From Allomuricauda sp. NBRC 101325 (GTDB lineage Bacteria; Bacteroidota; Bacteroidia; Flavobacteriales; Flavobacteriaceae), in contig NZ_BSQF01000003.1 in assembly GCF_030268205.1 (NCBI RefSeq), positions 235,687 through 299,686 on the forward strand: a stretch of 64,000 nt of DNA, given 5' to 3'. The position numbers were made by a program, and so were the translations under genes. This document shows, one piece after another, positions 2,219-48,790 of the stretch. A model generated the notes under the pieces. The model searched no databases and was not told where the DNA came from. It worked only from the letters and a program-made list of their open reading frames with translations. Numbering within the stretch: the first letter of the stretch is position 1; each line of letters begins with the position of its first letter.

Positions 2219-4705
2219 CTATCCTTGGAACTGTCTTTCTTCCTCGCCTTCATCCGGTCCTTGTCCACGTCTGTTGTTACGTTCTTTCGGTTGGTTGAAT
2301 CGGTAAATAAAAGATAGGTTAGCCTGTCTTTTTCTCCACTGGAACTCACTATCCGTGGTAAAAGTAGCAGTTTGGGTATATGACTGACGTTTTCTGGAAT
2401 TGAACACGTCGCTTACATTTAAGGATAATGTTGCTTTATCTTTGAACAAGTCCTTGCTCAACGCCAAGTTTAAAGAGAACATCCCTTTGCTTTCGGTCTG
2501 TGCAGTCTGTCGTGGTCCCATAAAGAAAGAGTTGGCCTGTAACTCAATTTTTCCAGGTAGTGTAAACTTGTTGCTCATTCTTGAGAAGAAGCTAGAGTTG
2601 GAAGTTCCATAATTCACACCATTAAATTCCCCGTCAGTAGTGAACGTAAAGAAGTTGATACTTCCGTTCATTCTCCACCATTTTGCAATACTGTATATAA
2701 TCCCGGCTTCGGCCCCGATACGCTCGTTGGTAGAAAGGTTGATGGGTACAGAACGGATAATTTGGATCCCATCGGATGTGAAATTTCCTGTTTCTTCGGT
2801 AATAAATTCAAATGATTGTGTTTCTCTTTGATAGTATACAGAAGATGTTAAGGTAATTTTCTTCCATCTTTTCATATATCCTACATCAAATGCATCTGCG
2901 TAGGCTGGGTCAAGATCCGGATTACCTTGGAACACATTGGTTCTACTTGATCTAGAAGGGAAGGGGTTAATAAACCATCCTCTTGGTCTGTTGATCCTAC
3001 GGTTATATCCAATAGAAATATTTTGTGAGTCCGAAAGCTCATATATCAAGTTTACCGTTGGGAAAAGACCTAGATAGTTTTTATCAAAATTTAGGTCTAC
3101 ATCTTCACCAACAAGATCTTGCAAAACAGAAATATCCACCTCTGAGTCAACATTACCCTTCATTACGGTATTCTCCAAACGCAACCCCAACAATACAGAG
3201 AACTTACCATATTTGTTACCGTATTGGGTATACAAAGCATTTACATTTTCGTGATAAGTGAAAATATTGGTCAGATCCATATTGGTTTGAAAATTACCAG
3301 TACTTTGGTTCAAGGTATCCAATTGGTAATCGTTCACTTCTTTTTTGAAGTTTCCACGATATCCCGCTTCAAACTGGGCATCACCCATAGGCAATACATA
3401 GTCAATTTGGGTCAAAAACTCATCACGGTCCTGAATTTCATAAATGTTTTCAAGTGCAATAAGACTGTCGCTCGGGATATATTGGTCTTCACGAATTCCA
3501 GTTAAAACATCTTCCGTATTAGTTGAATATTGTAAATCTGCGGTCAATTTGTGACCAGCATCATTAATATTATTGGTGTAGTTTAAGGAATATTGGGTAC
3601 TGCGGTCCTTTTCACCTTGATCCTCCGTTCTAAGGGTTCGGCTCATCAAACTTCCATCGTTAAAACGTTGGTTGTTGTTTTCGGTCACATCGTTACCATC
3701 GGACCATCTGTAGAAAACGCTACCGGTAATGGAAGATTTATCGGTTAAATAATACTCCATACCAAGGTTGATGTTAAACCCGTCGTCATTTCGTTCGATG
3801 TTTCTGTCCTCCAAAATTCTATCGAAAGCACTGGCATCTGATAAATATCGGTTGTCGTTAAACCCACCCCCTGGAGATTCCCTGTGGAAATAACCTAGCG
3901 TATTAAAAATGTTGAACTTTTCGGTACGGATGTTCAAATTGGTGGTAGCCCTTGCATTAAAAGGAATACCCACAGTGGTGTTGATTGAACCGTTGATACC
4001 CAAAGTCTTTTCCTTTTTAAGGATAATGTTCAAAATACCCGCGGTCCCTTCGGCATCATATCTAGCGGAGGGACTGGTAATTACCTCTACTTTTTCAATG
4101 GCATCCGCAGGTAGTTGCTGTAAAATATCGGTTGATCCAAAACCTGCCAAAGCAGAAGGTTTACCGTTAATAAGAATTCTTACATTGTCGTTCCCTCTAA
4201 GACTAATGGCACCTTCCACATCCACGGATACGGAAGGAATATTGCTCAAAGCATCGCTTACGTTACCACCACTTGTGGTAATATCTTTTCCAATGTTATA
4301 TACTTTTTTGTCCAAACGAACCTCAACCGTGGTACGCTCCCCAACAACTTCTACTTCAGCTAATTGTGCAACATCTGGAGATAAAGTAATGTTTCCGAGA
4401 TTGGTGTCGGAAGTAAGGGGTTTGCTATTTAAGGAATAAGTTTTGTATGAAATAAATTCAACTCGAATATTATAGGTACCTGGAGCGGTTTCAATGGAAA
4501 AGTTACCGTCTAAATCGGTAATGCCCCCTGTTACACTATTGGGGTCGTCAGCTTTTTGAAGTACAAATGTGGCGTATTCCAGAGGTTGTCCAGAATCGGA
4601 ATCCATTACTTTTCCTGTAACGGTTATGGGTCTTTGGTTCTGCTGCGCCTGACCTTGAATAACAAATGCGGTCATCAACAGCAAAGGAATTATAATCCTG
4701 TGCAT
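2219..4705 (-). CDS. Outer-membrane TonB-dependent receptor-like beta-barrel protein
   Basis: 828 residues. An N-terminal signal peptide (MHRIIIPLLLMTAFVIQGQAQ) is followed by a carboxypeptidase-regulatory-like domain at about 27-110 (VTGKVMDSDSGQPLEYATF...DLDGNFSIE). A plug domain follows at about 115-230 (VEVVGERTTVEVRLDKKVY, RGNDNVRILINGKPSA, AIEKVEVITSPSARYDAEG), then a long beta-barrel of the OMP_b-brl_3 type. The tail is polar and ends EEERQFQG. Such proteins import large ligands, or act as barrels with no known ligand, driven by TonB/ExbBD. No SusD partner is adjacent, so a glycan-uptake role is not supported. A small secreted protein gene lies 101 bases upstream on the same strand. 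Confidence 0.9.
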   Translation of the reverse strand: MHRIIIPLLLMTAFVIQGQAQQNQRPITVTGKVMDSDSGQPLEYATFVLQKADDPNSVTGGITDLDGNFSIETAPGTYNIRVEFISYKTYSLNSKPLTSDTNLGNITLSPDVAQLAEVEVVGERTTVEVRLDKKVYNIGKDITTSGGNVSDALSNIPSVSVDVEGAISLRGNDNVRILINGKPSALAGFGSTDILQQLPADAIEKVEVITSPSARYDAEGTAGILNIILKKEKTLGINGSINTTVGIPFNARATTNLNIRTEKFNIFNTLGYFHRESPGGGFNDNRYLSDASAFDRILEDRNIERNDDGFNINLGMEYYLTDKSSITGSVFYRWSDGNDVTENNNQRFNDGSLMSRTLRTEDQGEKDRSTQYSLNYTNNINDAGHKLTADLQYSTNTEDVLTGIREDQYIPSDSLIALENIYEIQDRDEFLTQIDYVLPMGDAQFEAGYRGNFKKEVNDYQLDTLNQSTGNFQTNMDLTNIFTYHENVNALYTQYGNKYGKFSVLLGLRLENTVMKGNVDSEVDISVLQDLVGEDVDLNFDKNYLGLFPTVNLIYELSDSQNISIGYNRRINRPRGWFINPFPSRSSRTNVFQGNPDLDPAYADAFDVGYMKRWKKITLTSSVYYQRETQSFEFITEETGNFTSDGIQIIRSVPINLSTNERIGAEAGIIYSIAKWWRMNGSINFFTFTTDGEFNGVNYGTSNSSFFSRMSNKFTLPGKIELQANSFFMGPRQTAQTESKGMFSLNLALSKDLFKDKATLSLNVSDVFNSRKRQSYTQTATFTTDSEFQWRKRQANLSFIYRFNQPKERNNRRGQGPDEGEEERQFQG

Positions 4706-4806
4706 AGTTTGATTTTAGTTCCGCAAAATTGTCAGGAATAAAATAAGGCACGAAATTAATATCTATCAACAACGGATTTGTGCCTGCGAATGACCTTAAA
4801 GAATTG

Positions 4807-5286
4807 TTAATCTTTTTTCTTGCCCTTTTTTCGCTTCTTTTTCACTTTAAACTGGTTATTTTGAAGCTCAACATAAGCTTCATACTTTTCAAGAGGGAGA
4901 CCAGCTTTTAGTTCTTCATCTTGTCTTTTTTGGATTTTTTCCACTTCTTCCTTCATTTTCAAAGGCTCCAGTTCCAAAATGGAAAGTTCGATGCGTTGTT
5001 GTACCGATTTTGTCAATGAGGTTCTAACGACTGCAGCTTCAAAAGGGTCCAATCCCAAGGCTTCCGTAATGGAAGGCATTTGCGATTCCACAATTTCCTC
5101 AGCGGTAGGAGGAGCTTCTTTTTTGGTGGATTCAACAGGGCCAGCTTCAGGAACATAGCTACGTCCCCTTCCATACATACCTCCATAACCATATGGTGAA
5201 CCATAACCGTATTGGGCAGCTACTTCGTTAATGGCAAAAAAGCCGATACAAAGTGTTAGAAACAAAAGGGACTGAATATTTTTCAT
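4807..5286 (-). CDS. Small secreted protein with Tyr/Gly-rich N-terminus, unknown function
   Basis: 159 residues with a clear signal peptide (MKNIQSLLFLTLCIGFFAINEVAAQ). A Tyr/Gly-rich stretch follows (YGYGSPYGYGGMYGRG). The rest is a helical, highly charged region of about 100 residues rich in Glu and Lys, ending in a very basic tail (KVKKKRKKGKKKD). The helical part (VVRTSLTKSVQQRIELSILELEPLKMKEEVEKI) could be a periplasmic coiled coil, loosely like LTXXQ/Spy-type proteins, but no motif proves that. It lies 101 bases upstream of the receptor gene and may be co-transcribed. I do not recognise a named family. Confidence 0.75.
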   Translation of the reverse strand: MKNIQSLLFLTLCIGFFAINEVAAQYGYGSPYGYGGMYGRGRSYVPEAGPVESTKKEAPPTAEEIVESQMPSITEALGLDPFEAAVVRTSLTKSVQQRIELSILELEPLKMKEEVEKIQKRQDEELKAGLPLEKYEAYVELQNNQFKVKKKRKKGKKKD

Positions 5287-5756: not shown

Positions 5757-6848
5757 TCCTCCTTCTGTCCCATCATCATAAGATAGGCCTTTAAAAAGGC
5801 ATCCAAATCACCATCCATAACCGCATCCACATTTCCTGTTTCCTCTGCAGTTCGCACGTCTTTTACCAATTTATAAGGGTGCATCACATAGTTTCGAATC
5901 TGTGAACCCCATTCAATCTTCATTTTGGAGGATTCAATTTCTGCACGGGCCTCTTGTTTTTTGCGCAATTCTATTTCGTACAACTGCGATTTCAACATTT
6001 TCATGGCCGTGGCCCTGTTATCGTGCTGTGATCGCGAATCTGAACATGATATTTGGATTCCCGTTGGCTTGTGCACCAATTGCACTTTGGTTTCCACCTT
6101 GTTCACATTTTGGCCACCTGCACCACTGGAACGTGCTGTGGTAATCTCAATATCTGATGGATTGACTTCAATTTCAATGGTGTCATCCACCAAAGGGTAC
6201 ACATACACCGATGCGAATGAAGTATGTCTTTTGGCATTGCTATCAAAAGGGGAGATACGCACCAAACGATGTACCCCATTTTCACCTTTGAGCCAACCAA
6301 ATGCATATTCGCCCTCAATCTCCAAGGTTACAGTCTTTATACCCGCAACATCGCCTTCTTGATAGTTGAGTTCCTTGATTTTGTATCCGTTTTTTTCGGC
6401 CCACATCATGTACATACGCATGAGCATGGAGGCCCAATCACAACTTTCGGTTCCTCCTGCACCAGCAGTGATCTGAAGAACTGCGGTCAGTTCATCACCT
6501 TCTTCGGAAAGCATGTTCTTGAACTCCAGTTTTTCAATGGCTGAAATGGAATTTTCAAATTGCTTGGATACTTCTTCTTCAGAAACTTCCCCTGCTTGTT
6601 GAAATTCCACCAATACTTCGAGGTCGCCAACCAAACTTGTGGCTTCCTCAAAATCTTCAACCCATTTCTTTTTGGATTTTAGCGACTGCATTTGTTTTTG
6701 GGCTTCTTGTGGATTGTCCCAAAAATTAGGTTCGAGGGTTTTTTCTTCCTCGTTTTCTATTTCGATGAGCTTGGCATCAATGTCAAAGATACCTCCTTAA
6801 CGCACCAAGGCGCTCAATAAGATCTTTTTGCTGATCTGTAGTTACCAT
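5753..6848 (-). CDS. prfB: Peptide chain release factor 2 (programmed +1 frameshift)
   Basis: RF2 recognises UGA and UAA and triggers peptide release. The protein is 364 residues when two frames are joined: 21 codons from ATG at 6848 to the CTT before TGA (6785-6783), then the +1 frame from GAC at 6784 to the TAG at 5753. The peptide-release motif GGQ is in [14 protein letters not shown], and [16 protein letters not shown] follows. The N-terminus begins [21 protein letters not shown]. An internal AGGAGG lies three bases before CTT-TGA, the classical autoregulatory layout: low RF2 favours frameshifting. Annotation from the downstream frame alone would lose about 50 residues. Confidence 0.95.
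6782..6797 (-). other. prfB +1 recoding site
   Basis: On the minus strand the sequence reads AGG AGG TAT CTT TGA C. The Shine-Dalgarno-like AGGAGG, the slippery CTT and the in-frame TGA followed by C are all in the positions known for bacterial prfB autoregulatory frameshifting. Confidence 0.95.
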
Positions 6849-14702: not shown

Positions 14703-16316
14703 TTAAGGGTTACAGTCATTACCACTTGGGGAATCGCCAGAAATTGCCCAACCATATGTGAACATTAGTTCTTCTATTGCAATAGCTGCTTGGTTACAAT
14801 ACACCATTCCAGCTTGATCATTAAAATTAACATTAACTGGAATTTGGGCCTCTCCATCATCCAAAGTCGCCCAGCCAATTAAAGTATTACTGTAATTTGC
14901 TTCAGACATTCCTGAATTTGCGAATATACTGAACGCATTATTAAGACTTTCAATATTCCATTTGCCTAAATTTTGATTGAAGGTAGTTGCATCCGTGAAC
15001 ATGAATGATAGATTGGTTACTTTACTAACATTCCAATTACTAATATCCTTATTAAAAGTGGTAGCTTCTCTAAACATGCCATTCATACTTGTGACATTGC
15101 TAGTATTCCAAGTACTGACATTTCCATTAAAAGCTGTGGCATAACTGAACATTTGGGACATGAAAGAAACATTTTGAGTATCCCAATTACTTAAATCTCC
15201 ATCAAAAGACGTTGCTCCATAGAACATTCTATGCAAAGAAATGTTTTGTTCAGATAAATTAGGTGCATCTTTTGCATTACTAATCATGTTATCGCAAAAC
15301 ATAAAGGCACCAATCAAATCAACCCATGGATTGGAACCCCATTGTTCAACACTTTTGAGGTTGGATTTTGTTGCGGAATAAAACATTCTTAATGCTGGAA
15401 AATCACGAAGTATTGCAACCGAATAGGTGTCAGGATCTTTATAGATGTGTGAAATATTCTCTTGACCGTTCACGTTGATATCTTCCACAACTCCATCCCC
15501 CCAGTCAATGCTAAAATCATATGAATAATTAGATTCTATTCCAATTTGGATCTCCTCATCTGCCATAGATGTTTCCCAAGTGGTAATAAAGGAATTTGGG
15601 TCTTCTTGCAAGGTATCTATCACATTGTTTATTGTAATATTTATTTGAAACTCTACCGTATTTCCCCCATCATCACTTATCCTTATCGTTATATTTTGCA
15701 CTAGATTGGCTGGGTCTATTGCTTCAAAATCCAAAATTTGTCCTTGTATCAGACTTAATTGCCCTTGTTCGTCAATCTCAAAAAGGGTATTGTCGCCCAC
15801 GATTTCAAAATTTACATTCCCGCCTTCGGGATCTTCAGCAGTAAGGGTTGCAAACACAAAATCGTCGGCAATATTCTCTTCCACACTAAATTCGGTGGTC
15901 TCGTTGGTGAGTTCCGGGGCCTCGTCCACATTGGTAACGTTTACGGTAATCGTGGCACTGGCCGAAAGGGTGCCATCGTTAACTATAACTGTTAAATCGT
16001 ATTTAGGGGTCTGTTCAAAATTTAAGGTTTGGCCCACGGCCAAGCTCAGCTCGCCTGTTTTTGCCAAATTGAATGGACTCTCGCCACTAATTGCAAAATT
16101 TAAGGTGTCCCCTTCATCGTCACTGGCATTGATTTTGCCAATTTGTCCTGGCTGTTTGTCCTCGGCCACCGATACGCTCTGATCTTCAATGGTAGGGGCA
16201 GTGTTCTCTTTGTCGGGAGTAGGTTTGGGAGCAGGGTCCTCATCCTTGCTACAGGCCCAAATAAATAGAACTCCCAAAATGATTGGAAGTCCAAAATGTG
16301 CAATTTTTTTCATCAT
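14703..16316 (-). CDS. Surface lipoprotein with cadherin-like and BspA-type (DUF285) repeats
   Basis: 537 residues. The lipobox FIWAC puts the lipidated Cys at 22, and the following SKDED fits the acidic lipoprotein surface-export signal of Bacteroidetes, so the protein is probably on the cell surface. Two cadherin-like domains at about 38-128 and 130-230 contain Ca-binding-type blocks (ASDDEGDTLNFAI, AEDPEGGNVNFEI). A PKD-like segment around 255-310 (FSIDWGDGVVEDINVNG) precedes DUF285 repeats at about 365-480, with units like FDGDLSNWDTQNV..M..MF and FNGNVSTWNTSNVTSMNGMF. These modules suggest adhesion. A paralogue lies at 46266. Upstream are 21-bp-spaced TTGACGG repeats; both flanks are repeat islands. 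Confidence 0.9.
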   Translation of the reverse strand: MMKKIAHFGLPIILGVLFIWACSKDEDPAPKPTPDKENTAPTIEDQSVSVAEDKQPGQIGKINASDDEGDTLNFAISGESPFNLAKTGELSLAVGQTLNFEQTPKYDLTVIVNDGTLSASATITVNVTNVDEAPELTNETTEFSVEENIADDFVFATLTAEDPEGGNVNFEIVGDNTLFEIDEQGQLSLIQGQILDFEAIDPANLVQNITIRISDDGGNTVEFQINITINNVIDTLQEDPNSFITTWETSMADEEIQIGIESNYSYDFSIDWGDGVVEDINVNGQENISHIYKDPDTYSVAILRDFPALRMFYSATKSNLKSVEQWGSNPWVDLIGAFMFCDNMISNAKDAPNLSEQNISLHRMFYGATSFDGDLSNWDTQNVSFMSQMFSYATAFNGNVSTWNTSNVTSMNGMFREATTFNKDISNWNVSKVTNLSFMFTDATTFNQNLGKWNIESLNNAFSIFANSGMSEANYSNTLIGWATLDDGEAQIPVNVNFNDQAGMVYCNQAAIAIEELMFTYGWAISGDSPSGNDCNP

Positions 16317-16380
16317 ACTAATTTTTTGGTTACTAGTACCGATGAAAATAGTGCATAGGTGATCTGCCTAACCCCGCCAA

Positions 16381-16408
16381 TTGACGGATGCCCTTTTTGG
16401 GTTGACGG
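16381..16408 (-). promoter_or_regulatory. LytTR-like direct-repeat operator upstream of lipoprotein gene A
   Basis: TTGACGG occurs at 16381-16387 and 16402-16408, exactly 21 bases apart, with a 14-base spacer (ATGCCCTTTTTGGG). On the minus strand the core reads TCCGTCAA. The proximal repeat is 65 bases upstream of the ATG and about 30 bases upstream of a -7-like TATTTTC at 16350-16344. Equivalent arrays precede the genes starting at 40033 and 47753. LytTR-type regulators bind about 9-bp direct repeats with a 21-bp period, so this is a candidate activator site; no LytTR gene is in the window. Confidence 0.6.
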
Positions 16409-16410
16409 AT

Positions 16411-17065
16411 AAGGGGATTATGTTAAAATTTAGGTGGTTTTGTAAGAGTTTTCAGGATCAAATTACAAGTTCAAGGAGCAAGTTCAAAAGCATCCAAAAA
16501 TTTAAGAATCTAATTATCCAAAAATCGTCTGTTTGATACGAATTTCTCTAATTTGCTCGAAGAAAGAAAGTTCAAGGTCAAATACAAGTTCAAGGATCAA
16601 GTTCAAAAGCATCTAAAAAATAGCTTGACACGAATAACGCAAATTACTCGAATATTATAGTTCAAGTGTCAAGTTCAAGTGTCAAATTCAAACGCAAAAG
16701 CTGGTTTTCTTTCAACCTTCAACCTTCAACCTTCAACCTTCAACCTTCACCTTTAACCCTTAACCCTTAGCCCAAAAAAATAATCCAACCCTCCGAGCCG
16801 TTCTCGATACATTCCGAAATACTTTCGGAACACTCGAACTGACGCATTAAAGTTCAATGTACAAGGTCAAGTTCAGGCATTGAACAATCCAGCAATCCAA
16901 AAATCTAGCTATCCGAACCGTTATTGATACGCTACGCACTCGAACTGACGGATAAAAGTTCAAATATCAAGTTCAAGGTCATCGAATAATCCAGCAATCG
17001 AACTCGTTCTCGATACGCTTCGCGCTCGAACTGACCTCTAACTACTAACTACTAGATATTATCAT
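16411..17065. repeat. Repeat-filled intergenic island A2
   Basis: No credible gene. Contents: caagttcaag-type runs (16455-16680), TTCAACC heptamers in tandem (16711-16747), AACCCTT-like units, a second copy of the GTTCTCGATACATTCCGAAA / TTTCGGAACACTCGAAC palindrome (16801-16842), shorter relatives near 16920-16950 and 17000-17030, CCAGCAATCCAAAAATC phrases, and AACTACT heptamers (17040-17054). A block near 16534-16575 (ATACGAATTTCTCTAATTTG then CTCGAAGAAAGAAAGTTCAA) nearly repeats 14258-14305 of island A1. Confidence 0.8.
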
Positions 17066-35714: not shown

Positions 35715-36665
35715 TTAAAAGAACCTTGGGGTTATGATTCGGTCGGACCTATTGAAGATTTCAAAACGGAGAAAAACCTCATAGGAACCATTGCTGTATT
35801 GTTGTATGTTGGTGGATTGGTAATCGTAAGCAAGTCCGGCAAAGAAACCCCTGGAAATCTGGAAGCCCATCAATGCACTGTATGATGCACTCCATCGATA
35901 GGAAGCTCCAAGCACAAATTTTTCACTGAACATAAAGTTGGCAGCAATATCCCATTGTAAGGGGGCACCACTTACATATTTTACCAATGAAGTGGGTTTG
36001 AACTTTAGATTCCTGTTCAAATCAAACACATAACCAGTGATAAAAAAATAATGAAGGCGCTCCACTGCTATGTTTTCAACATTCATGTTATTTAGGGAAT
36101 CTTCATCAAAATGTTTGGAGTTCAGAAAATTTGGAACGGAAAGACCCGCATAAAACTTTTCACTATATAAATATAGGCCAGCACCCATTTGAGGCTGAAG
36201 TTTGTTGTATATCGTGGTCTGGAAGTATGGGTCGCCTGGGTCAAAAATGTTTAATTTGGAATAATCAACGTTCAGCATATCCAAACCAGCTTTTAGGCCA
36301 AATGCCAATCTTGTGGTATTGGACAAATAAATTTTATAGGACCAATCCATGACCAAATTGGACTCGGTGGCAGGTCCGATTTTATCATAAACTATCGATA
36401 GTCCCAGCCCCATGTCTTTGTATCGGCCCACAGGGGAGTTGACCGAAAGTGTACCCGTCTCGGGAGTACCTTCCAGATTCATCCATTGTGTGCGTCCCAA
36501 TAACCCAATACTCAATGAGCCCCTTGAACCTGCATATGCTGGGTTTACAATTTGGGTATTGTACATGTATTGGGTGTATTGTGGATCTTGCTGGGCTGTT
36601 GTTATTTGTGAAAGGGCCAAACATAGCAGTGCTGTAAGACAAAGAATCTTGGTTGGTTTAAACAT
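35715..36665 (-). CDS. Type IX secretion system PorP/SprF family membrane protein
   Basis: 316 residues with a signal peptide (ALSQITTAQ) followed by QDPQYTQYMYNTQIVNPAYAGSRG, the diagnostic PorP/SprF start. The rest alternates in barrel strands (WSYKIYLSNTTRLAFGLKAGLD, LVKYVSGAPLQWDIAANFMF) and ends FLRFEIFNRSDRIITPRFF. The SprF/PorP group are outer-membrane barrels that serve secretion or surface anchoring of T9SS B-type substrates encoded next to them. The gene lies between such a substrate (36719-40033) and the OmpA protein. Confidence 0.95.
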   Translation of the reverse strand: MFKPTKILCLTALLCLALSQITTAQQDPQYTQYMYNTQIVNPAYAGSRGSLSIGLLGRTQWMNLEGTPETGTLSVNSPVGRYKDMGLGLSIVYDKIGPATESNLVMDWSYKIYLSNTTRLAFGLKAGLDMLNVDYSKLNIFDPGDPYFQTTIYNKLQPQMGAGLYLYSEKFYAGLSVPNFLNSKHFDEDSLNNMNVENIAVERLHYFFITGYVFDLNRNLKFKPTSLVKYVSGAPLQWDIAANFMFSEKFVLGASYRWSASYSALMGFQISRGFFAGLAYDYQSTNIQQYSNGSYEVFLRFEIFNRSDRIITPRFF

Positions 36666-36718: not shown

Positions 36719-39700
36719 TTAATCCCTGTTGATATAGAGGTAACCAGAGTAGCTACTTTCACCTGGGTTTTCTCCTATAAAACTTAAGATGTAGAAATAG
36801 GTACCACTGGGCAGTTCCCTATCTTTTTGTAGCGTTGCCCTACCTTCGGAAATTCCATAAAACAAGTTTGAATCCAATCCGTAACCATCGGCTTCATAGA
36901 CCAAAACACCCCATCGATTAAAGATTTTCAAGTTGTTGTTCGGGTAATTTTCAATACCGTTGATTTGGAAATAGTCGTTTAAACCATCATTGTTTGGCGT
37001 GATGCCATTAAAAATTTCAAAATCACTAATCGGACCAGGATCATTGCAAACGATATTGGGAATTAGAGTTTGTGTTGGATCATCCTCATTTGGACTATTG
37101 TCATCGGAAATATCGGATACAGAAAAATCAATATTGACCACTTTAGCAGTAACTGTTGCGGAGTTTGTAACAATGCCAACATCGATGTCATTATCCAATA
37201 GGATATAATTTGCCTCAAAAGTCCATGTTTCACCAACAGACAACATTTGGTCGTTGTCAATATCTGTTCCCTCAACTGGACCAGAAACCATTCCCCAGAA
37301 CAGTTCATTATCGATAAGCTCAACTTCAATTAGATCTAAATTACCTGTGTTTGATACCGTAAAGGTGTAATCAATACTTTCTGGACATCCATCATTATCC
37401 AAATCTGATAGCGCAGCGGTCTTGATCAAGGCAATTCCTGGGGATGCATCTAATAAGCAAGAATCCACTGGGACCAATGTAACTGTAAACCCATCATCAT
37501 CGATTGCCGTTTCGTGTGAATAATCAAAAATTGGAATATTGGTTTGGTCGATTAATCCAGTTGCCAGGGCACGGTTAGACACTTGACCCATATCCAAATC
37601 ATTTTGGGTAAAACCATAAAGAGCTTCAAAGAACCAAGTTTCACCAACTGATAAAATTCCATCACTATTGGTATCGGATTCTGGAATAAATCCAATTAGG
37701 TCAGGGTCGATAAGTTCATCTTCAAGAGATATTTCAATGATATCCACATCGCCATTATTGGTCAATTCAAAGGTGTATAAAATGCTATCGGAACAGCCAT
37801 CCCCGTTCACATCTACCAAATTACCCGCTTTTAACAGGTACATATTGGCAGCACCTTCGGTACAGACATTACCTGATAAAAGGGTATGGGTTTCCCTATT
37901 TTCACTGTTATTGTCAAAATCGGAATCATCAAAAACGGGAAGATTTAAACCTTCTGTTAGCCCCGTAGCCGTTGCTTGATTAATTACCTCTCCGGCATCA
38001 ATATCTTCTTGTTTTAGTTGATATAGTGCTTCGTAGGTCCATACTTCTCCAACGGATAAAATACCATCCAATCCAATATCACTGCCATCTGTTGGCCCAG
38101 GGATATCTGCCAGACCTAATTGATCTTCATCTTCAACAACAATAGAATGGAGATTTATTTCCCCCTCGTTTGTAACGGTAAAGGTGTATAGAATACTTTC
38201 ATCGCAACCATCGTTATCAATATCGATTGGCACACCCTTTTTAATCAATGCAATTTCTGGATTGCCATCGGCACAGCTTTCAGTGACGATAACCCTTGTC
38301 CATCGATTGTTGAAATTATCTGTATTATCCGAGTTATCCGAAACGGGCAGTTCAAGACCCACAGTTTTTCCCATAACTGTTGCCTGATTAACAACAGAAC
38401 CAAAATCTATATCTTCTTGGGTAATGGCATAAACGGCATGATACCTCCACACTTCTCCCACGGAAAGTACTTCGTCCCCTCCAATATCGTCCCCGTCCAA
38501 AGGTCCAGGAATATCAGCAAGTCCCAACAACTCTTCATCCTCCAATACAATATCTTTAAGGTCTACATCGCCCATATTGGTCACTGTGAATTCATAGAGG
38601 ATACTTTCATAGCATCCATCATCATTAAGATCGTATAAATCACCTTTTTTTATAAGCCCAATGCCGGCGGAACCATTAACGCAAGCAATGTTAACGGGTG
38701 TTCTTGTCATTCCATCGGAGAAGGGATCACTTGCATGGGAATCGTCCTGAACCAATAGATTGGTGTTCACGGTGTAGGCATCTACAGAAGCTTGATTGTT
38801 CACACTTGCATTATCAATATCGGTTTGGGTTAGGGCATAAAGTGCTTCGTAGGTCCAAGTTTCTCCGATGGAAAGAATTCCATCCATTCCCACATCGCTG
38901 TTCTCGGTTGGGCCAGGAATATCCACAAGTCCCAAAACATCCTCATCTTCAATTACAATTTCGTGCAAATTTGTATTACCCGTATTGGTTACCGTAAATT
39001 TGTATAGGATGCTGTCATCACATCCATCTTGATTGACATCTACAAAACCATCACTCACTTTAACCAAGCCAATACTTCCATTATCAATGCAACCGGGCTC
39101 GTCAACAGGGGTATTTGTAAAACCATCACTATTAAAATCACTATCATGGGAGAAATCAGATACTTGGGTAGCTGTCCCTATAATCTCGGCAGTAACAATG
39201 GCTTGGGTTTCCATATTTCCACCTATCATTAAATTAGTGTTTACGGGCCAATTAAAGGTGTAATTCCATGTCTCCCCTGGGGATAATACACCAATTTCAC
39301 CAATATCATCTCCTGCAACCGGACCAGGGATATTACCTTGATATACCACAGGAGATGTTACCACAATCTCATCCAAATCAATGGTTCCCGTATTCTGAAC
39401 GGTAATTTTATAGATAATGGTCTCTTTGCAACCATCCCCATTTATATCTACTAAGTCCCCGAAGTTGATAATGCCAATATTTGGCGTTTGACATGCAGTG
39501 AGATCAACCGTGGTCAAATCGTTTTCTAAGGGGCTGTTGTCATCTGACAAATCTTGAACACCCACCAATAGTTGATTCTTTAGATTGGCATTGACTACTG
39601 CTTGATCTGATACTTCGCCATTAATAATGTCTTGTTCGGTTATAAAATAATTTTGGGTAACAATCCAAATCTCGTTGCTATCCAATTCATTATTTAGATT

Positions 39701-40033
39701 ATCATCACCAGAAAATCCAGAGTTGATAATGCCCAAGTTAGGGTCATTGATAACCACATTTGCCAGAATTTCACCTGCGGTACTTTGATTTTCGATAGTG
39801 AAGGTGTATTCAATAAATGCACATCCAACGTCAGTGCCAGATAAATTTCGACGGACTCCTGATTTAACCAAAGAAATTTGAGGAACATATGGGGCAACTT
39901 TGTCTTCGATTTTCAAGAACAAAGTATTATGTTCTTTAAATTTTCCAAAAAGACTAAGGGAACAAAAGGATATTAAAAGCAATAGAACCAAAAAAGCAAT
40001 GGTCCTTTTATTGGGGAGTAGTTGTTTAAGCAT
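36719..40033 (-). CDS. Large T9SS type B substrate with seven DUF11-like repeats
   Basis: 1104 residues. An N-terminal membrane/signal segment (IAFLVLLLLISFCSLSLFG) is followed by seven repeats of about 125 residues. Most begin with a DxNxDGC loop (DINGDGCKETIIY, DVNQDGCDDSILY, DLNDDGCYESILY) and contain LSVGETWTYEALY-like and TQxDIDxGxVxNQA-like blocks. The C-terminus (about 1010-1104) is a gliding-motility-associated B-type sorting domain (NGITPNNDGLNDYFQINGI, LKIFNRWGVLVYEADGYG, SGTYFYILSF). It is thus a surface adhesin-like protein exported by T9SS and likely served by the adjacent PorP/SprF. Upstream are three 21-bp-spaced LytTR-like repeats. Confidence 0.93.
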   Translation of the reverse strand: MLKQLLPNKRTIAFLVLLLLISFCSLSLFGKFKEHNTLFLKIEDKVAPYVPQISLVKSGVRRNLSGTDVGCAFIEYTFTIENQSTAGEILANVVINDPNLGIINSGFSGDDNLNNELDSNEIWIVTQNYFITEQDIINGEVSDQAVVNANLKNQLLVGVQDLSDDNSPLENDLTTVDLTACQTPNIGIINFGDLVDINGDGCKETIIYKITVQNTGTIDLDEIVVTSPVVYQGNIPGPVAGDDIGEIGVLSPGETWNYTFNWPVNTNLMIGGNMETQAIVTAEIIGTATQVSDFSHDSDFNSDGFTNTPVDEPGCIDNGSIGLVKVSDGFVDVNQDGCDDSILYKFTVTNTGNTNLHEIVIEDEDVLGLVDIPGPTENSDVGMDGILSIGETWTYEALYALTQTDIDNASVNNQASVDAYTVNTNLLVQDDSHASDPFSDGMTRTPVNIACVNGSAGIGLIKKGDLYDLNDDGCYESILYEFTVTNMGDVDLKDIVLEDEELLGLADIPGPLDGDDIGGDEVLSVGEVWRYHAVYAITQEDIDFGSVVNQATVMGKTVGLELPVSDNSDNTDNFNNRWTRVIVTESCADGNPEIALIKKGVPIDIDNDGCDESILYTFTVTNEGEINLHSIVVEDEDQLGLADIPGPTDGSDIGLDGILSVGEVWTYEALYQLKQEDIDAGEVINQATATGLTEGLNLPVFDDSDFDNNSENRETHTLLSGNVCTEGAANMYLLKAGNLVDVNGDGCSDSILYTFELTNNGDVDIIEISLEDELIDPDLIGFIPESDTNSDGILSVGETWFFEALYGFTQNDLDMGQVSNRALATGLIDQTNIPIFDYSHETAIDDDGFTVTLVPVDSCLLDASPGIALIKTAALSDLDNDGCPESIDYTFTVSNTGNLDLIEVELIDNELFWGMVSGPVEGTDIDNDQMLSVGETWTFEANYILLDNDIDVGIVTNSATVTAKVVNIDFSVSDISDDNSPNEDDPTQTLIPNIVCNDPGPISDFEIFNGITPNNDGLNDYFQINGIENYPNNNLKIFNRWGVLVYEADGYGLDSNLFYGISEGRATLQKDRELPSGTYFYILSFIGENPGESSYSGYLYINRD

Positions 40034-40158
40034 ACGTTAGTTTTTTGGTGTAGTCGGTCACTGTACACCAAATTGCTTAAATGATAAACTCAGTAAGATT
40101 TGGGAACAGCAATCAATCCATAAATATCGTTTTAAGGTAAATGCGGTGTTGCCACCAA

Positions 40159-40207
40159 TTAACGGATAGGTAGTTTGAGTTGACGGTTCGCCGTTTTGGT
40201 TTGACGA
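40159..40207 (-). promoter_or_regulatory. LytTR-like triple direct-repeat operator of the T9SS substrate operon
   Basis: TTAACGG (40159), TTGACGG (40180) and TTGACGA (40201) are each exactly 21 bases apart. A -7-like TATTTATG sits on the minus strand at 40126-40119, about 32 bases from the proximal repeat, and the ATG is 126 bases away. The layout matches the arrays at 16381 and 47845. Confidence 0.6.
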
Positions 40208-46265: not shown

Positions 46266-47753
46266 CTATGGGCAGTTTATACCGTTTGTATATGAAAAAG
46301 TCCAATTATTAGGCGCTGACTGCAAAATATCTACAGCATCGAATGATTCTTGGGTCAGACAAAAATCAACATTGTCGCACCCAAGTTCAACGCCGGGCTG
46401 TACCACCTGTTTTGACCAACCAATTAAGGTATTGGCAAAGTTGGCTGGCGACATTGCAGAATTTTTTAGCATATTTGTCATATCTGTAACACTGCCAATA
46501 GTCCAGTCTCCAAGATCCTGGTTAAAACTAGCAGCATTACTGAACATACCGGACATATCCTCCACCTTGCTCACATTCCATCCGCTAAGATCCCCATTAA
46601 ATTTTGTTGAACCGAACATTGCTGACATATCGGTTATATTGCTTACATCCCACTGACCAATAGCATTGGCAGCCTCTGCATCAAAACTTGCTATTCCGCC
46701 AAACATACTAGCTAAAGAGGTTGTTTGTGACAAATTGGGTGCATCAGTGGCATTGTACTTCATTCCAATGGCCAATGTAAATGCATCGCTCAAACTTTTC
46801 CATTCGATTGCGCCCCATTGATCCATACTTTTTAAACTGATTCTGGTTGAAAACGGAACATTTTCGTACATCACAAAAGTTGGGAACTCGCCCTGTAAGG
46901 CCACGGTACGTTCCCCTGCAGTGGCATACATATGCGTTGGTTGGGCATCATCCACTGCCAACGTAATGTTCTCAATGGTGCCATCGCCCCAGTCTATGGT
47001 AAAATCGTATTCATATTCAACTAAAGTACCCAAGACTAATTCAAAACCATCTTCGGGTATGTTCCAAGTGGTAATAAAGGAGTCGGCACTGGCGGCCAGT
47101 TCACCGGGCTCTATAATGTTGGTAACGGTAATGGTCACGTCTGCAGTTGTAATATCCTGCCCATCGCTTACGCTCACTTTGATCACGTATTGCTTGGTAC
47201 CTTCATAATCAAGGCTCATGCCTTCGGCCAAGCTAATTTCACCAAGTTCATTGATCACGAACAGGTTATCGGTAGTATTGGTAACGATTTCAAAAATAAG
47301 GTTTGCTCCATTGCCATCTGGATCATTGGCCGTTACCGTACCAATTACCTCTGCATCGGTAATGTTCTCCGGTTTTTCAAAGTCCAAACTGCCTGTGCCA
47401 AATACAGGAGCTAGGTTCTTGGTTTCGGTTACGGTAAAGGTATCCCCAGTTGCGGTTTTCCCACCAACGGTAACGGAGACCTTTCCATTGGTTGCACCTG
47501 CGGGTACCGTTACCACCAGTGTAGTGGCCGTTGCACTGGAAATTGTTGCTGTTGCCGTTCCAATTTTTACAGTGTTCTCGGCTGCCGTGGCACTAAAGTT
47601 TTGCCCTTCAATGGTAACCACTGTACCTACAGGCCCCGAAGGTGGGCTAAATTTTGTGATTTTTGGTGTCAATGCATTTGGGGAGTCATCGTCCTTGCTA
47701 CAGGACCAGACCAAAGCAAGGGCCATTAGGGCCAAGGCAAGGTATTTTTTCAT
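46266..47753 (-). CDS. Surface lipoprotein with IPT/TIG, cadherin-like and BspA-type repeats
   Basis: 495 residues from MKKYLALALM; an earlier in-frame ATG at 47780 is less suited to a signal peptide. The lipobox LVWSC gives Cys18, and the following SKDDD is an acidic surface-export signal. An IPT/TIG domain at about 28-108 (ITKFSPPSGPVGTVVTIEGQNF) is followed by one cadherin-like domain at about 115-220 (ANDPDGNGANLIFEI), a PKD-like part (FTIDWGDGTIENITL), and DUF285 repeats at about 355-450 (GQWDVSNITDMSAMF, NGDLSGWNVSKVEDMSGMF). Paralogue of the gene at 14703 with its first domain exchanged. Probable adhesin. Confidence 0.9.
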   Translation of the reverse strand: MKKYLALALMALALVWSCSKDDDSPNALTPKITKFSPPSGPVGTVVTIEGQNFSATAAENTVKIGTATATISSATATTLVVTVPAGATNGKVSVTVGGKTATGDTFTVTETKNLAPVFGTGSLDFEKPENITDAEVIGTVTANDPDGNGANLIFEIVTNTTDNLFVINELGEISLAEGMSLDYEGTKQYVIKVSVSDGQDITTADVTITVTNIIEPGELAASADSFITTWNIPEDGFELVLGTLVEYEYDFTIDWGDGTIENITLAVDDAQPTHMYATAGERTVALQGEFPTFVMYENVPFSTRISLKSMDQWGAIEWKSLSDAFTLAIGMKYNATDAPNLSQTTSLASMFGGIASFDAEAANAIGQWDVSNITDMSAMFGSTKFNGDLSGWNVSKVEDMSGMFSNAASFNQDLGDWTIGSVTDMTNMLKNSAMSPANFANTLIGWSKQVVQPGVELGCDNVDFCLTQESFDAVDILQSAPNNWTFSYTNGINCP

Positions 47754-47844
47754 GTGTGTTAATTTTTTCAAATGTTCCATAACAATGTTTTATTACGATT
47801 ATCCATGCAAATTCTTGCTTTTAGCTTTGCTATTGGGTCACGAT

Positions 47845-47893
47845 CTTACCAATGCCCCTTTTGGGTTGATGGATGATGGGTTTCGGTTGACGG
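47845..47893 (-). promoter_or_regulatory. LytTR-like direct-repeat operator upstream of lipoprotein gene B
   Basis: TTGATGG (47866) and TTGACGG (47887) are exactly 21 bases apart, and a degenerate CTTACCA sits 21 bases before them at 47845. The 14-base spacer ATGCCCCTTTTGGG matches the spacer at lipoprotein gene A in 13 of 14 positions. The array ends about 92 bases from the ATG at 47753. Confidence 0.55.
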
Positions 47894-48790
47894 GGATGGA
47901 CAATAAACTGTGAACAATGAACAGTGAACAATGAATAATTAGCAATGAGGTGAAGGGGGAAAAGTTAAATGTTAAAAGTTAAAAGTGGAAAGTAAAAAGG
48001 TTGAAAGCTTTAAGCTGTATGCTGTAAGCTCTAAGTGTTAAGTTTTAAGTTGCAGGTTGTCATTTCGACAGAGCATAGCGACGAGAAATCTCACTATTTG
48101 GGAAAGTGAAAAGTGAAAAGTGAAAAGTGAAAAGTGAAAAGTGAAAAGTGAAAAGTTGAAAAGAGGCAGGGACCCTGAGCGAAGTCGAAGGGGCAATTAT
48201 CAATAGGTAATGAGTTTAAAGTTGAAAATGAAAAAGGTTCCTAAACGGTGGTTCCTGAGCTTAGTTGAAGGAAGTCGAAGGAACAATCAAGTTGTAAGCT
48301 CTAAGTTTTAAGTTGGAAGTGGATTAATCGAACAACCATCAACGAAAAACGAATAAACCAGTTGTAAGCTCTAAGTTTTAAGTTGCAGGTTGTCATTTCG
48401 ACAGAACGTACGCCTACTGGGGTATGGTGCTTTAACGTCCCACTTTAGGTTGACACGAATTTCACGAAAGTCGATAATGTTTTATTGGATAAAATGTGTA
48501 ATTCTGAACAAAGTGAAGAATCTAATATTTAGATAACAATGTTTAAGTGTAAAGGGCTAAAGGCAAAAGGTAAAGTTCTAAGTTAAAGGGGCGGACAATC
48601 GAGAAACCATCAACCAAAAACGAATTAACAATTAGCAATAAGCAATGTTCAATTACCAATTACTGTTTACTAACTATTTGTTTCGAACAATCGAATAATC
48701 CAAAAATTCAGCTGTAAGGGTCTAGTTTTAAGTTGGAGTGGAGATTACCGAACAACTATGAACCATCAACGAAAAACGAATCCACAAAGC
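47894..48790. repeat. Repeat-filled intergenic island B2
   Basis: No credible gene in about 900 bases. It has a CAATGAACAGTGAACAATG-type run at 47908-47950, about seven tandem GTGAAAA heptamers (48105-48154), REP-like GTCATTTCGACAGAGCATAG units (48059, 48392), the 95-base block shared with island B1 (48166-48260), AACCATCAACCAAAAACGAA phrases (48340-48355, 48605-48624, 48755-48782) and CACGAATTTCACGAAA. It ends a few bases before the stop of the next leftward gene. Confidence 0.8.
48052..48260 (+). repeat. Direct repeat copy 2 flanking lipoprotein gene B
   Basis: Partner of 45633-45820. 48052-48103 and 48166-48260 are base-for-base identical to 45633-45684 and 45726-45820; the intervening GTGAAAA tract is longer here (about seven units). 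Confidence 0.85.

Follow-up and report, generated by a model that had tools for sequence, protein, structure and literature searches.

Two families of bacterial regulators are known to act at direct repeats with a period close to 21 bp. LytTR regulators bind direct (or inverse) repeats, each 9-11 nt long and 11-13 nt apart, with no common consensus according to the available part of the source (PMC4847170), whereas AraC-type hybrid two-component regulators (HTCS) of Bacteroides have direct-repeat motifs with an average tandem distance of 21 bp, again as given in the accessible text (PMC3878776). In Flavobacterium, the sigma-A promoters have the -7 consensus TAnnTTTG (PMC6847099, PMC9723704, both in excerpt) and a weak -33 element.

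Here we describe head-to-tail repeats in a 64,000-nucleotide stretch of Allomuricauda sp. NBRC 101325 (the window). As in LytTR operators of the YpdB, AgrA, AlgR, VirR and PlnC types, two direct repeats of about 10 bp recur with a period of about 21 bp upstream of the promoter, at an activator position (available portions of PMC4847170 and PMC4064291); for AgrA-dependent promoters, the accessible text of PMC4227749 also gives a suboptimal promoter spacing. Unlike in those systems, no LytTR gene of this genome adjoins the motif, and the regulon would have dozens of members in one genus only. With the HTCS operators of Bacteroides, the repeats share the 21-bp average period, the direct orientation and a host from the Bacteroidota (PMC3878776, in excerpt), and also the link to AraC-type regulators, in that an AraC-type gene sits in the regulon. 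HTCS regulons, however, concern polysaccharide-use loci in the available part of that study (PMC3878776), whereas the set described here is genome-wide and rich in surface lipoproteins, with one box repeated. Compared with the sigma-A promoters of Flavobacterium, the -7 bases are the same and occur at a preferred offset from the repeats, but the region from about -40 to -70 is here filled by the repeat array. The arrays are very probably the sites of one transcriptional activator, which would control a large regulon that is specific to Flagellimonas (Allomuricauda/Muricauda) and rich in outer-membrane lipoproteins and secreted surface proteins. A literature search, with subscription papers mostly outside its reach, returned no regulon of this kind.

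Repeat arrays upstream of three surface-protein genes

An earlier, sequence-only reading of the window had placed seven-base units at exact 21-bp steps upstream of three surface-protein genes, 29-32 bases from a -7-like element. All unit positions and steps were reproduced in the window sequence, and the distances to the -7-like elements were measured as 30 bp (gene B), 32 bp (gene A) and 30 bp (gene C). The features are as follows, where protein families are from Pfam and the -7-like elements were read from the sequence.

14703-16316, minus strand: gene B, lipoprotein-like, 537 aa, with cadherin and DUF285 (BspA-like) matches
16343-16350, minus strand: -7-like element TATTTTCA before gene B, at a distance of 30 bp to the repeat
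16381-16408, minus strand: two-unit 21-bp direct repeat of gene B, TTGACGG at both 16381 and 16402; coding strand CCGTCAACCCAAAAAGGGCATCCGTCAATTGG; position weight matrix (PWM) score 52 bits
33789-35705, minus strand: OmpA-family protein with CarboxypepD_reg and PD40 matches
35715-36665, minus strand: PorP/SprF-type T9SS membrane protein, on the same strand as gene A after a 53-bp gap
36719-40033, minus strand: gene A, 1104-aa adhesin-like protein that matches DUF7507 in seven stretches and has a type IX secretion signal of the CHU_C kind
40119-40126, minus strand: -7-like element TATTTATG before gene A, at a distance of 32 bp to the proximal unit
40159-40207, minus strand: three-unit 21-bp direct repeat of gene A, TTAACGG at 40159, TTGACGG at 40180 and TTGACGA at 40201
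46266-47780, minus strand: gene C, lipoprotein-like, 504 aa, with TIG, cadherin and DUF285 matches
47807-47814, minus strand: -7-like element GAATTTGC before gene C, at a distance of 30 bp to the repeats
47845-47893, minus strand: three-unit array of gene C with a degenerate proximal unit, CTTACCA at 47845, TTGATGG at 47866 and TTGACGG at 47887

The arrays lie 64 bp (B), 125 bp (A) and 64 or 85 bp (C) from the called start codons, and a later ATG is the likelier start of gene C. Gene A and the PorP/SprF-type gene probably form one operon, of which the OmpA-family gene is a probable third member. At gene B, the -7-like element stands at the offset found genus-wide (see below). The element of gene C has this offset when counted from the degenerate proximal unit, and its first base deviates from TAnnTTTG. 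Nearly identical spacers, which had also been claimed, do exist (16388-16401 and 47852-47865), but they are found at the DUF285 lipoprotein genes B and C and not at the adhesin gene A. An Rfam search of the window gave no match. A REP-like intergenic element, which starts with gtcatttcgacagagc and ends with acgagaaatctca, is present at 48059-48093 of the window and at 6083-6123 of locus L085.

Abundance in the genome and restriction to one genus

The genome of the strain (G000, the own genome) comprises 3,688,068 bases in 12 contigs and is 99.6% complete; C1 and C2 denote contigs, L-numbers loci and the other G-numbers other genomes. The single heptamer TTGACGG was not enriched in the window (8 seen, shuffle mean 6.91), but the 21-bp pair was: with at most three mismatches, it was found 11 times, three of them in a TTGAAGG microsatellite, against a shuffle mean of 4.21 and a largest value of 9 in 100 shuffles. 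Genome-wide, the pattern TTGAYGRATGNNNNTTTTGRRTTGAYGR with at most three mismatches had 54 matches in 3.69 Mb, and the reversed pattern, which served as the control, had none. Most of the 54 stand before genes for lipoproteins or secreted proteins. The pair is not scattered at random positions, which the sequence-only reading had named as an outcome that would refute it; the sites are biased to gene starts. The repeat observation made in the window is real, and larger than had been supposed. A looser pattern gave 81 matches versus 5 for the control, a count inflated by TTGATGG microsatellites, because 7-bp tandem arrays of TTGAAGG or TTGATGG (window 16709-16750; C1:146928; C2:789078) imitate the motif at 21-bp steps.

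Two of the 54 matches in coding genes (L066 and L074) and one in a TTGATGG microsatellite (L067) were set aside, which left 51, and reducing tandem arrays to the pair nearest the gene gave the 47 sites used for alignment; the 48-site set used for gene-start counts retains the microsatellite site. A PWM built from the 47 sites found 60 places above 20 bits, and none when reversed, in 446 kb of own-genome DNA. These were mostly stretches chosen for holding sites, training sites included, and the 60 versus 0 therefore expresses separation and not genome density.

All 60 sampled genomes of the genus, G000 included, carried the motif, with 2-58 matches each (2 each, the fewest, in G139 and G144) and 1206 in total versus 5 for the control. 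The 21-bp spacing is kept in relatives; its loss there was the second outcome that the sequence-only reading had named as refuting. In 119 other genera of the family, there were 64 matches versus 12 for the control, spread over 45 genera with 1-6 matches each, and 24 of the 30 inspected were inside ORFs. A one-mismatch match in G018 occupies, in matching orientation, a 61-bp gap between genes of an operon on one strand, with the next start codon 13 bp further on. Matches of the TTGAACAATGTCC type in six loci lie inside ORFs of 292-299 aa, apparently one conserved gene. Scanning 84,980 species for the exact pattern returned 85 stretches, and 77 of the 80 listed were from Flagellimonas/Allomuricauda/Muricauda. 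The three other listed stretches were from an Algicola MAG, from a Bacteroidia MAG in which the site is 57 bp from a lipoprotein gene, and from a Desulfococcaceae genome in which the match is inside a coding ORF.

Position of the repeats relative to genes and predicted promoters

On the coding strand, the site reads CAT-YCRTCAA-YYCAAAA-nGGG-CAT-YCRTCAA-TTGG, with two head-to-tail units 21 bp apart and sometimes a third unit. In the own genome, the sites are mostly intergenic and in a common orientation, and the lipoprotein or secreted-protein genes behind them follow after about 60-125 bp. For 48 of the 54 matches, a gene on the expected side began no more than 350 bp away without an intervening 100-aa ORF; four fell within called ORFs of 150 aa or longer, two of which (L069 and L075) appear to have over-extended starts, and two were without such a gene. 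Among the 48 non-redundant own-genome sites, a gene start was located within 250 bp on the predicted side in 44 and on the mirror side in 7, and the corresponding numbers for 120 sites of other species were 96 and 32, so that the mirror side cannot be neglected there. Ten of these 120 were within ORFs of at least 100 aa (ORFs called mechanically). The commonest class of site-to-gene distance was 60-70 bp (56 of 203).

When the 47 own sites were aligned on the repeat, about 27 bp that are nearly free were followed by conserved bases, namely A at +59 (81%) and T at +62 and +63 (85% each). The same positions held A in 60%, T in 94% and T in 85% of 112 distinct sites from other species. Positions 59, 62 and 63 resemble the -7 element TAnnTTTG, and about half of the sites have the -7 box TAnnTT at 29-30 bp from the repeats. 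At offset 57-58, TAnnTT occurs in 23 of the 47 own sites, where the mean for any other offset is 0.49 sites, and in 53 of the 112 other-species sites, where this mean is 0.94; an exact TAnnTT is missing there from 24 and 59 sites, respectively. Because the sites were fetched by the pattern, the positions it contains are bound to look conserved to some extent; the orientation, the lipoprotein enrichment and the -7 bases are independent of it, and the last, being absent from the search pattern, are therefore independent evidence of function. Of the 47 sites, 9 had an extra unit with at least 5 of the 7 core bases one 21-bp step upstream of unit I, and 7 had one a step downstream of unit II, compared with 12 of 282 at control offsets. 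With a fixed distance to the -7 box in about half of the sites, the repeats look like activator sites of one regulon.

If the -7 element spans -12 to -5, as the distance from the -7 to the start site published for F. johnsoniae suggests (PMC6847099, available text), units II and I would be centred at about -46 and -67. A class-II activator at these positions could substitute for the absent -33 element, and two or three head-to-tail protomers, lying on one DNA face two helical turns apart, would then recruit RNA polymerase.

Genes behind the motif

Lipobox-like N-termini were more frequent in ORFs downstream of the motif (63 of 145) than in other ORFs of the same loci (67 of 849), as were signal or lipobox starts together (106 of 145 versus 257 of 849); these calls come from a heuristic of our own, with own-genome and other-species ORFs pooled, and 82 of the 145 downstream ORFs are without a lipobox-like start. 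The Pfam survey covered 43 own-genome proteins (44 minus the one at the microsatellite site). Among the 25 of 42 families listed, DUF285 was present in 8 proteins, cadherin in 8 and TIG in 4, and single proteins contained DUF7507, CHU_C, PorP/SprF, SprB repeats, alpha-2-macroglobulin domains, a TacA-type antitoxin, a glycosyltransferase or one HTH_18 regulator. The surface-protein genes behind the motif number dozens and are for the most part not related to one another. The targets in the window fit this regulon: genes B and C encode lipoproteins with cadherin and DUF285 domains, and gene A, for the DUF7507/CHU_C adhesin, stands ahead of the PorP/SprF and OmpA-family genes. Co-regulation of the three, as proposed from the window alone, is strongly supported by the genome-wide and genus-wide recurrence of the arrays, their main orientation, the preferred -7 distance and the enrichment of lipoproteins. 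The TacA-type antitoxin gene is behind a motif promoter at 4582-4881 of L082 (own genome, C2), and a toxin-antitoxin gene may thus belong to the regulon.

Conserved promoter slots with changing genes

Grouping the sites by their upstream gene revealed that the same chromosomal slots recur across species with different genes behind the motif, and this slot behaviour is the new part of the finding. The slot neighbours include genes that we take, from their sequences, to be argH, rluB, leuB and hisS, and also uvrA, named from Pfam. In the argH slot, two of the four downstream genes encode proteins of 333 and 185 aa, and the other two encode lipoprotein-like proteins that differ from each other (302 and 496 aa). 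Six loci of the leuB slot hold six cargo genes, some of them distantly related, and the uvrA slot holds gene A in the window and elsewhere a related 965-aa protein or an unlike 336-aa one. Across 73 pairs from 18 slots, the upstream neighbour was 84% identical at the median while the median cargo pair had no match, with 32 of the 73 cargo pairs retaining some homology. Where both flanks were conserved, 13 of 26 cargo pairs had no detectable homology and 3 reached 60% identity, versus 4 and 49, respectively, of 54 pairs of middle genes in control triplets from the same loci (p = 3.5e-5, indicative only, because the pairs are not independent, several loci being from the same species, and some pairs without a match have probably diverged). 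A wider version, in which the far flank could be any of six downstream genes, gave 33 pairs, 20 of them without detectable cargo homology and 3 with at least 60% identity. Divergence probably accounts for some of the pairs without homology, which are collagen-like or very short lipoproteins (L085/L156 and L072/L191), and the size of the effect is uncertain because of such low-complexity cases and the non-independence of pairs.

As the sites keep their positions while the genes often differ, a regulated promoter slot, and not a fixed gene set, appears to be inherited. In the own genome, a 17-kb run between the rluB-like and argH-like genes (C1:1393004-1410216; L076, L077) contains ten motif promoters and mostly small same-strand genes, including two YceG-like copies, a MORN lipoprotein, a methyltransferase, an AraC gene and others, and some of these promoters are within near-identical blocks of 57-151 bp. 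The same interval in G134 (L162) contains one cargo gene and one motif. The run looks like an expanded cassette-like island, and the argH-side interval, with its single cargo gene in G134, may represent a slot that expanded. We tentatively propose, as a possibility held at less than even weight, that fixed co-regulated promoter slots under one genus-specific activator exchange surface-protein genes, the promoter being stable and the gene variable. This would amount to an expression-site logic for surface variation across co-regulated promoter slots.

The near-identical blocks of up to about 150 bp that recur within this one island could also be taken to mean that the repeats are a spreading repetitive element, either MITE-like or a cassette end, with no regulatory role. 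A MITE-like element, however, is difficult to reconcile with the conservation seen in 47 own and 112 other-species sites, which is limited to the units with their immediate surroundings and to the -7 bases further away, with one main orientation relative to genes, with the persistence of the same slots across the genus and with viral contigs, in which there were 0 exact motif matches; we regard it as very improbable. That a common heptamer clusters by chance, for which the chance-level frequency of TTGACGG alone in the window could be cited, is refuted by 54 pairs versus 0, by the motif in 60 of 60 genus genomes and by the PWM separation, and its probability is negligible.

Candidate regulators

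The regulator survey covered two DNA-binding families, LytTR and HTH_18. The sequence-only reading had assigned the repeats to a LytTR response regulator, and their form does fit: a 10-bp core plus 11 bp makes 21 bp in the 47 own sites, which agrees with the definition of LytTR repeats in the available part of PMC4847170. Nevertheless, the 21-bp period is not diagnostic of LytTR, because AraC-type operators also have a 21-bp spacing. The own genome encodes 14 LytTR (PF04397) matches, among which L052 and L058 stand out as candidates. Each of the 8 other genus genomes tested has an ortholog of L052, a kinase/LytTR pair (C2:57829-58551), with 76-89% identity over the C-terminal part, and there is an ortholog of at least 66% identity in just 9 of 119 other genera, but these nine genera keep it at 66-79% identity and have only 0-2 motif matches each. 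The LytTR domain L058 (C1:716948-717208) is nearly genus-restricted, being 66-79% identical in 5 other genus genomes and at most 48% outside among the matches listed, but it is merely 45-53% identical, below 60%, in the motif-rich G152, G153 and G174. In G171, an ortholog of L058 belongs to a divergent kinase-like/LytTR pair, and a perfect motif is present at a distance of about 270 bp (around 3001-5063 of locus L172; G171 C1:1842162-1848189). The LytTR of this pair is 79% identical to own L058, which has no nearby site.

The other widely shared LytTR proteins, L053, L054, L055, L056, L060 and L063, also occur, among the matches listed, in genera without the motif, and no LytTR among those traced follows the motif distribution in the listed matches, L052 and L058 being nearest. 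L063 (C2:837613-837885), found in the genus and several other genera, is an orphan LytTR with a degenerate receiver whose Response_reg match is below the cut-off. In the 6-15-kb stretches around 13 of the 14 own LytTR genes, there was no PWM site above 9 bits, and around the fourteenth there was one about 3 kb away, before another gene; looser core matches (1-2 mismatches) near several of these genes had low PWM scores. LytTR autoregulation was rejected accordingly, and the expected LytTR regulator with the same motif upstream failed to appear, as no own LytTR operon has an adjoining PWM site. A site beside the regulator gene would help to place the repeats in a LytTR regulon but is not required for it. 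A LytTR protein is thus a candidate reader and not an established one.

The one regulator gene found in the own regulon is of the AraC type. The own genome has 39 HTH_18 matches, and the 21-bp direct repeats match the operator spacing of AraC-type HTCS in the available text of PMC3878776. L298 (C1:1465288-1465935) is a short membrane-anchored AraC gene that encodes 216 aa, with an N-terminal half that is hydrophobic by eye and HTH_18 at 131-211. Genes of this type, judged by frame length and identity, are present in 30 of the 60 genus genomes (59 of 60 have some L298 homolog when longer paralogs are included), and a site is located within 165 bp upstream in 28 of the 30 loci, the two without being L329, a 386-aa paralog, and L337. 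In the 119 other genera, only L298 paralogs of 370-521 aa reach E <= 1e-30 among the best candidates, at most 25 per genome. Genomes with L298 have a median of 26 motif matches versus 10 in those without (p = 4e-5, a value that ignores phylogeny). On the other hand, G150 has 22 motif matches yet no L298 homolog at E <= 1e-20 and no L296-L298 match, and in the motif-rich G153, G170 and G174 the matches listed are longer paralogs or an L296-like domain. G150 therefore rules out L298 as the sole regulator and shows that it is not an essential reader; L298 is a regulon member and perhaps a modulator.

AraC sites are expected to show two boxes in both half-sites, the second box being read by the second AraC helix. 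In the repeats, the CAAAA box after unit I is missing after unit II. The conservation query covered 33 of the own genome's 39 HTH_18 domains in six genomes, and none was both well conserved in three motif-rich genus genomes and clearly absent outside; L288 came nearest (64-75% in the three, at most 54% outside), and L282, L283 and L301 are shared with outgroups. At C1:302747-303355 (L069, L295), a protein with an N-terminal AraC HTH, followed by what are by eye a membrane segment and TPR-like repeats, is encoded divergently from a three-unit motif and a collagen-like lipoprotein gene. Taken together, a LytTR response regulator is a candidate for the activator at somewhat less than an even chance. 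An AraC-type (HTH_18) regulator is almost as likely, with L298, itself in the regulon, as a gene that may amplify or tune it, and a regulator of some other family is less likely than either.

Implications for surface-protein regulation

The motif provides a sharp DNA handle on a large surface-protein regulon of a widespread marine genus. Two matters become testable with it: the family of the regulator that recognises direct repeats of 21-bp period in Flavobacteriaceae, and the way in which promoters with a weak -33 element function when they depend on an activator. If the slot reading is true, regulation would be tied to the turnover of the accessory genome, and new surface genes would arrive pre-wired to a common switch.
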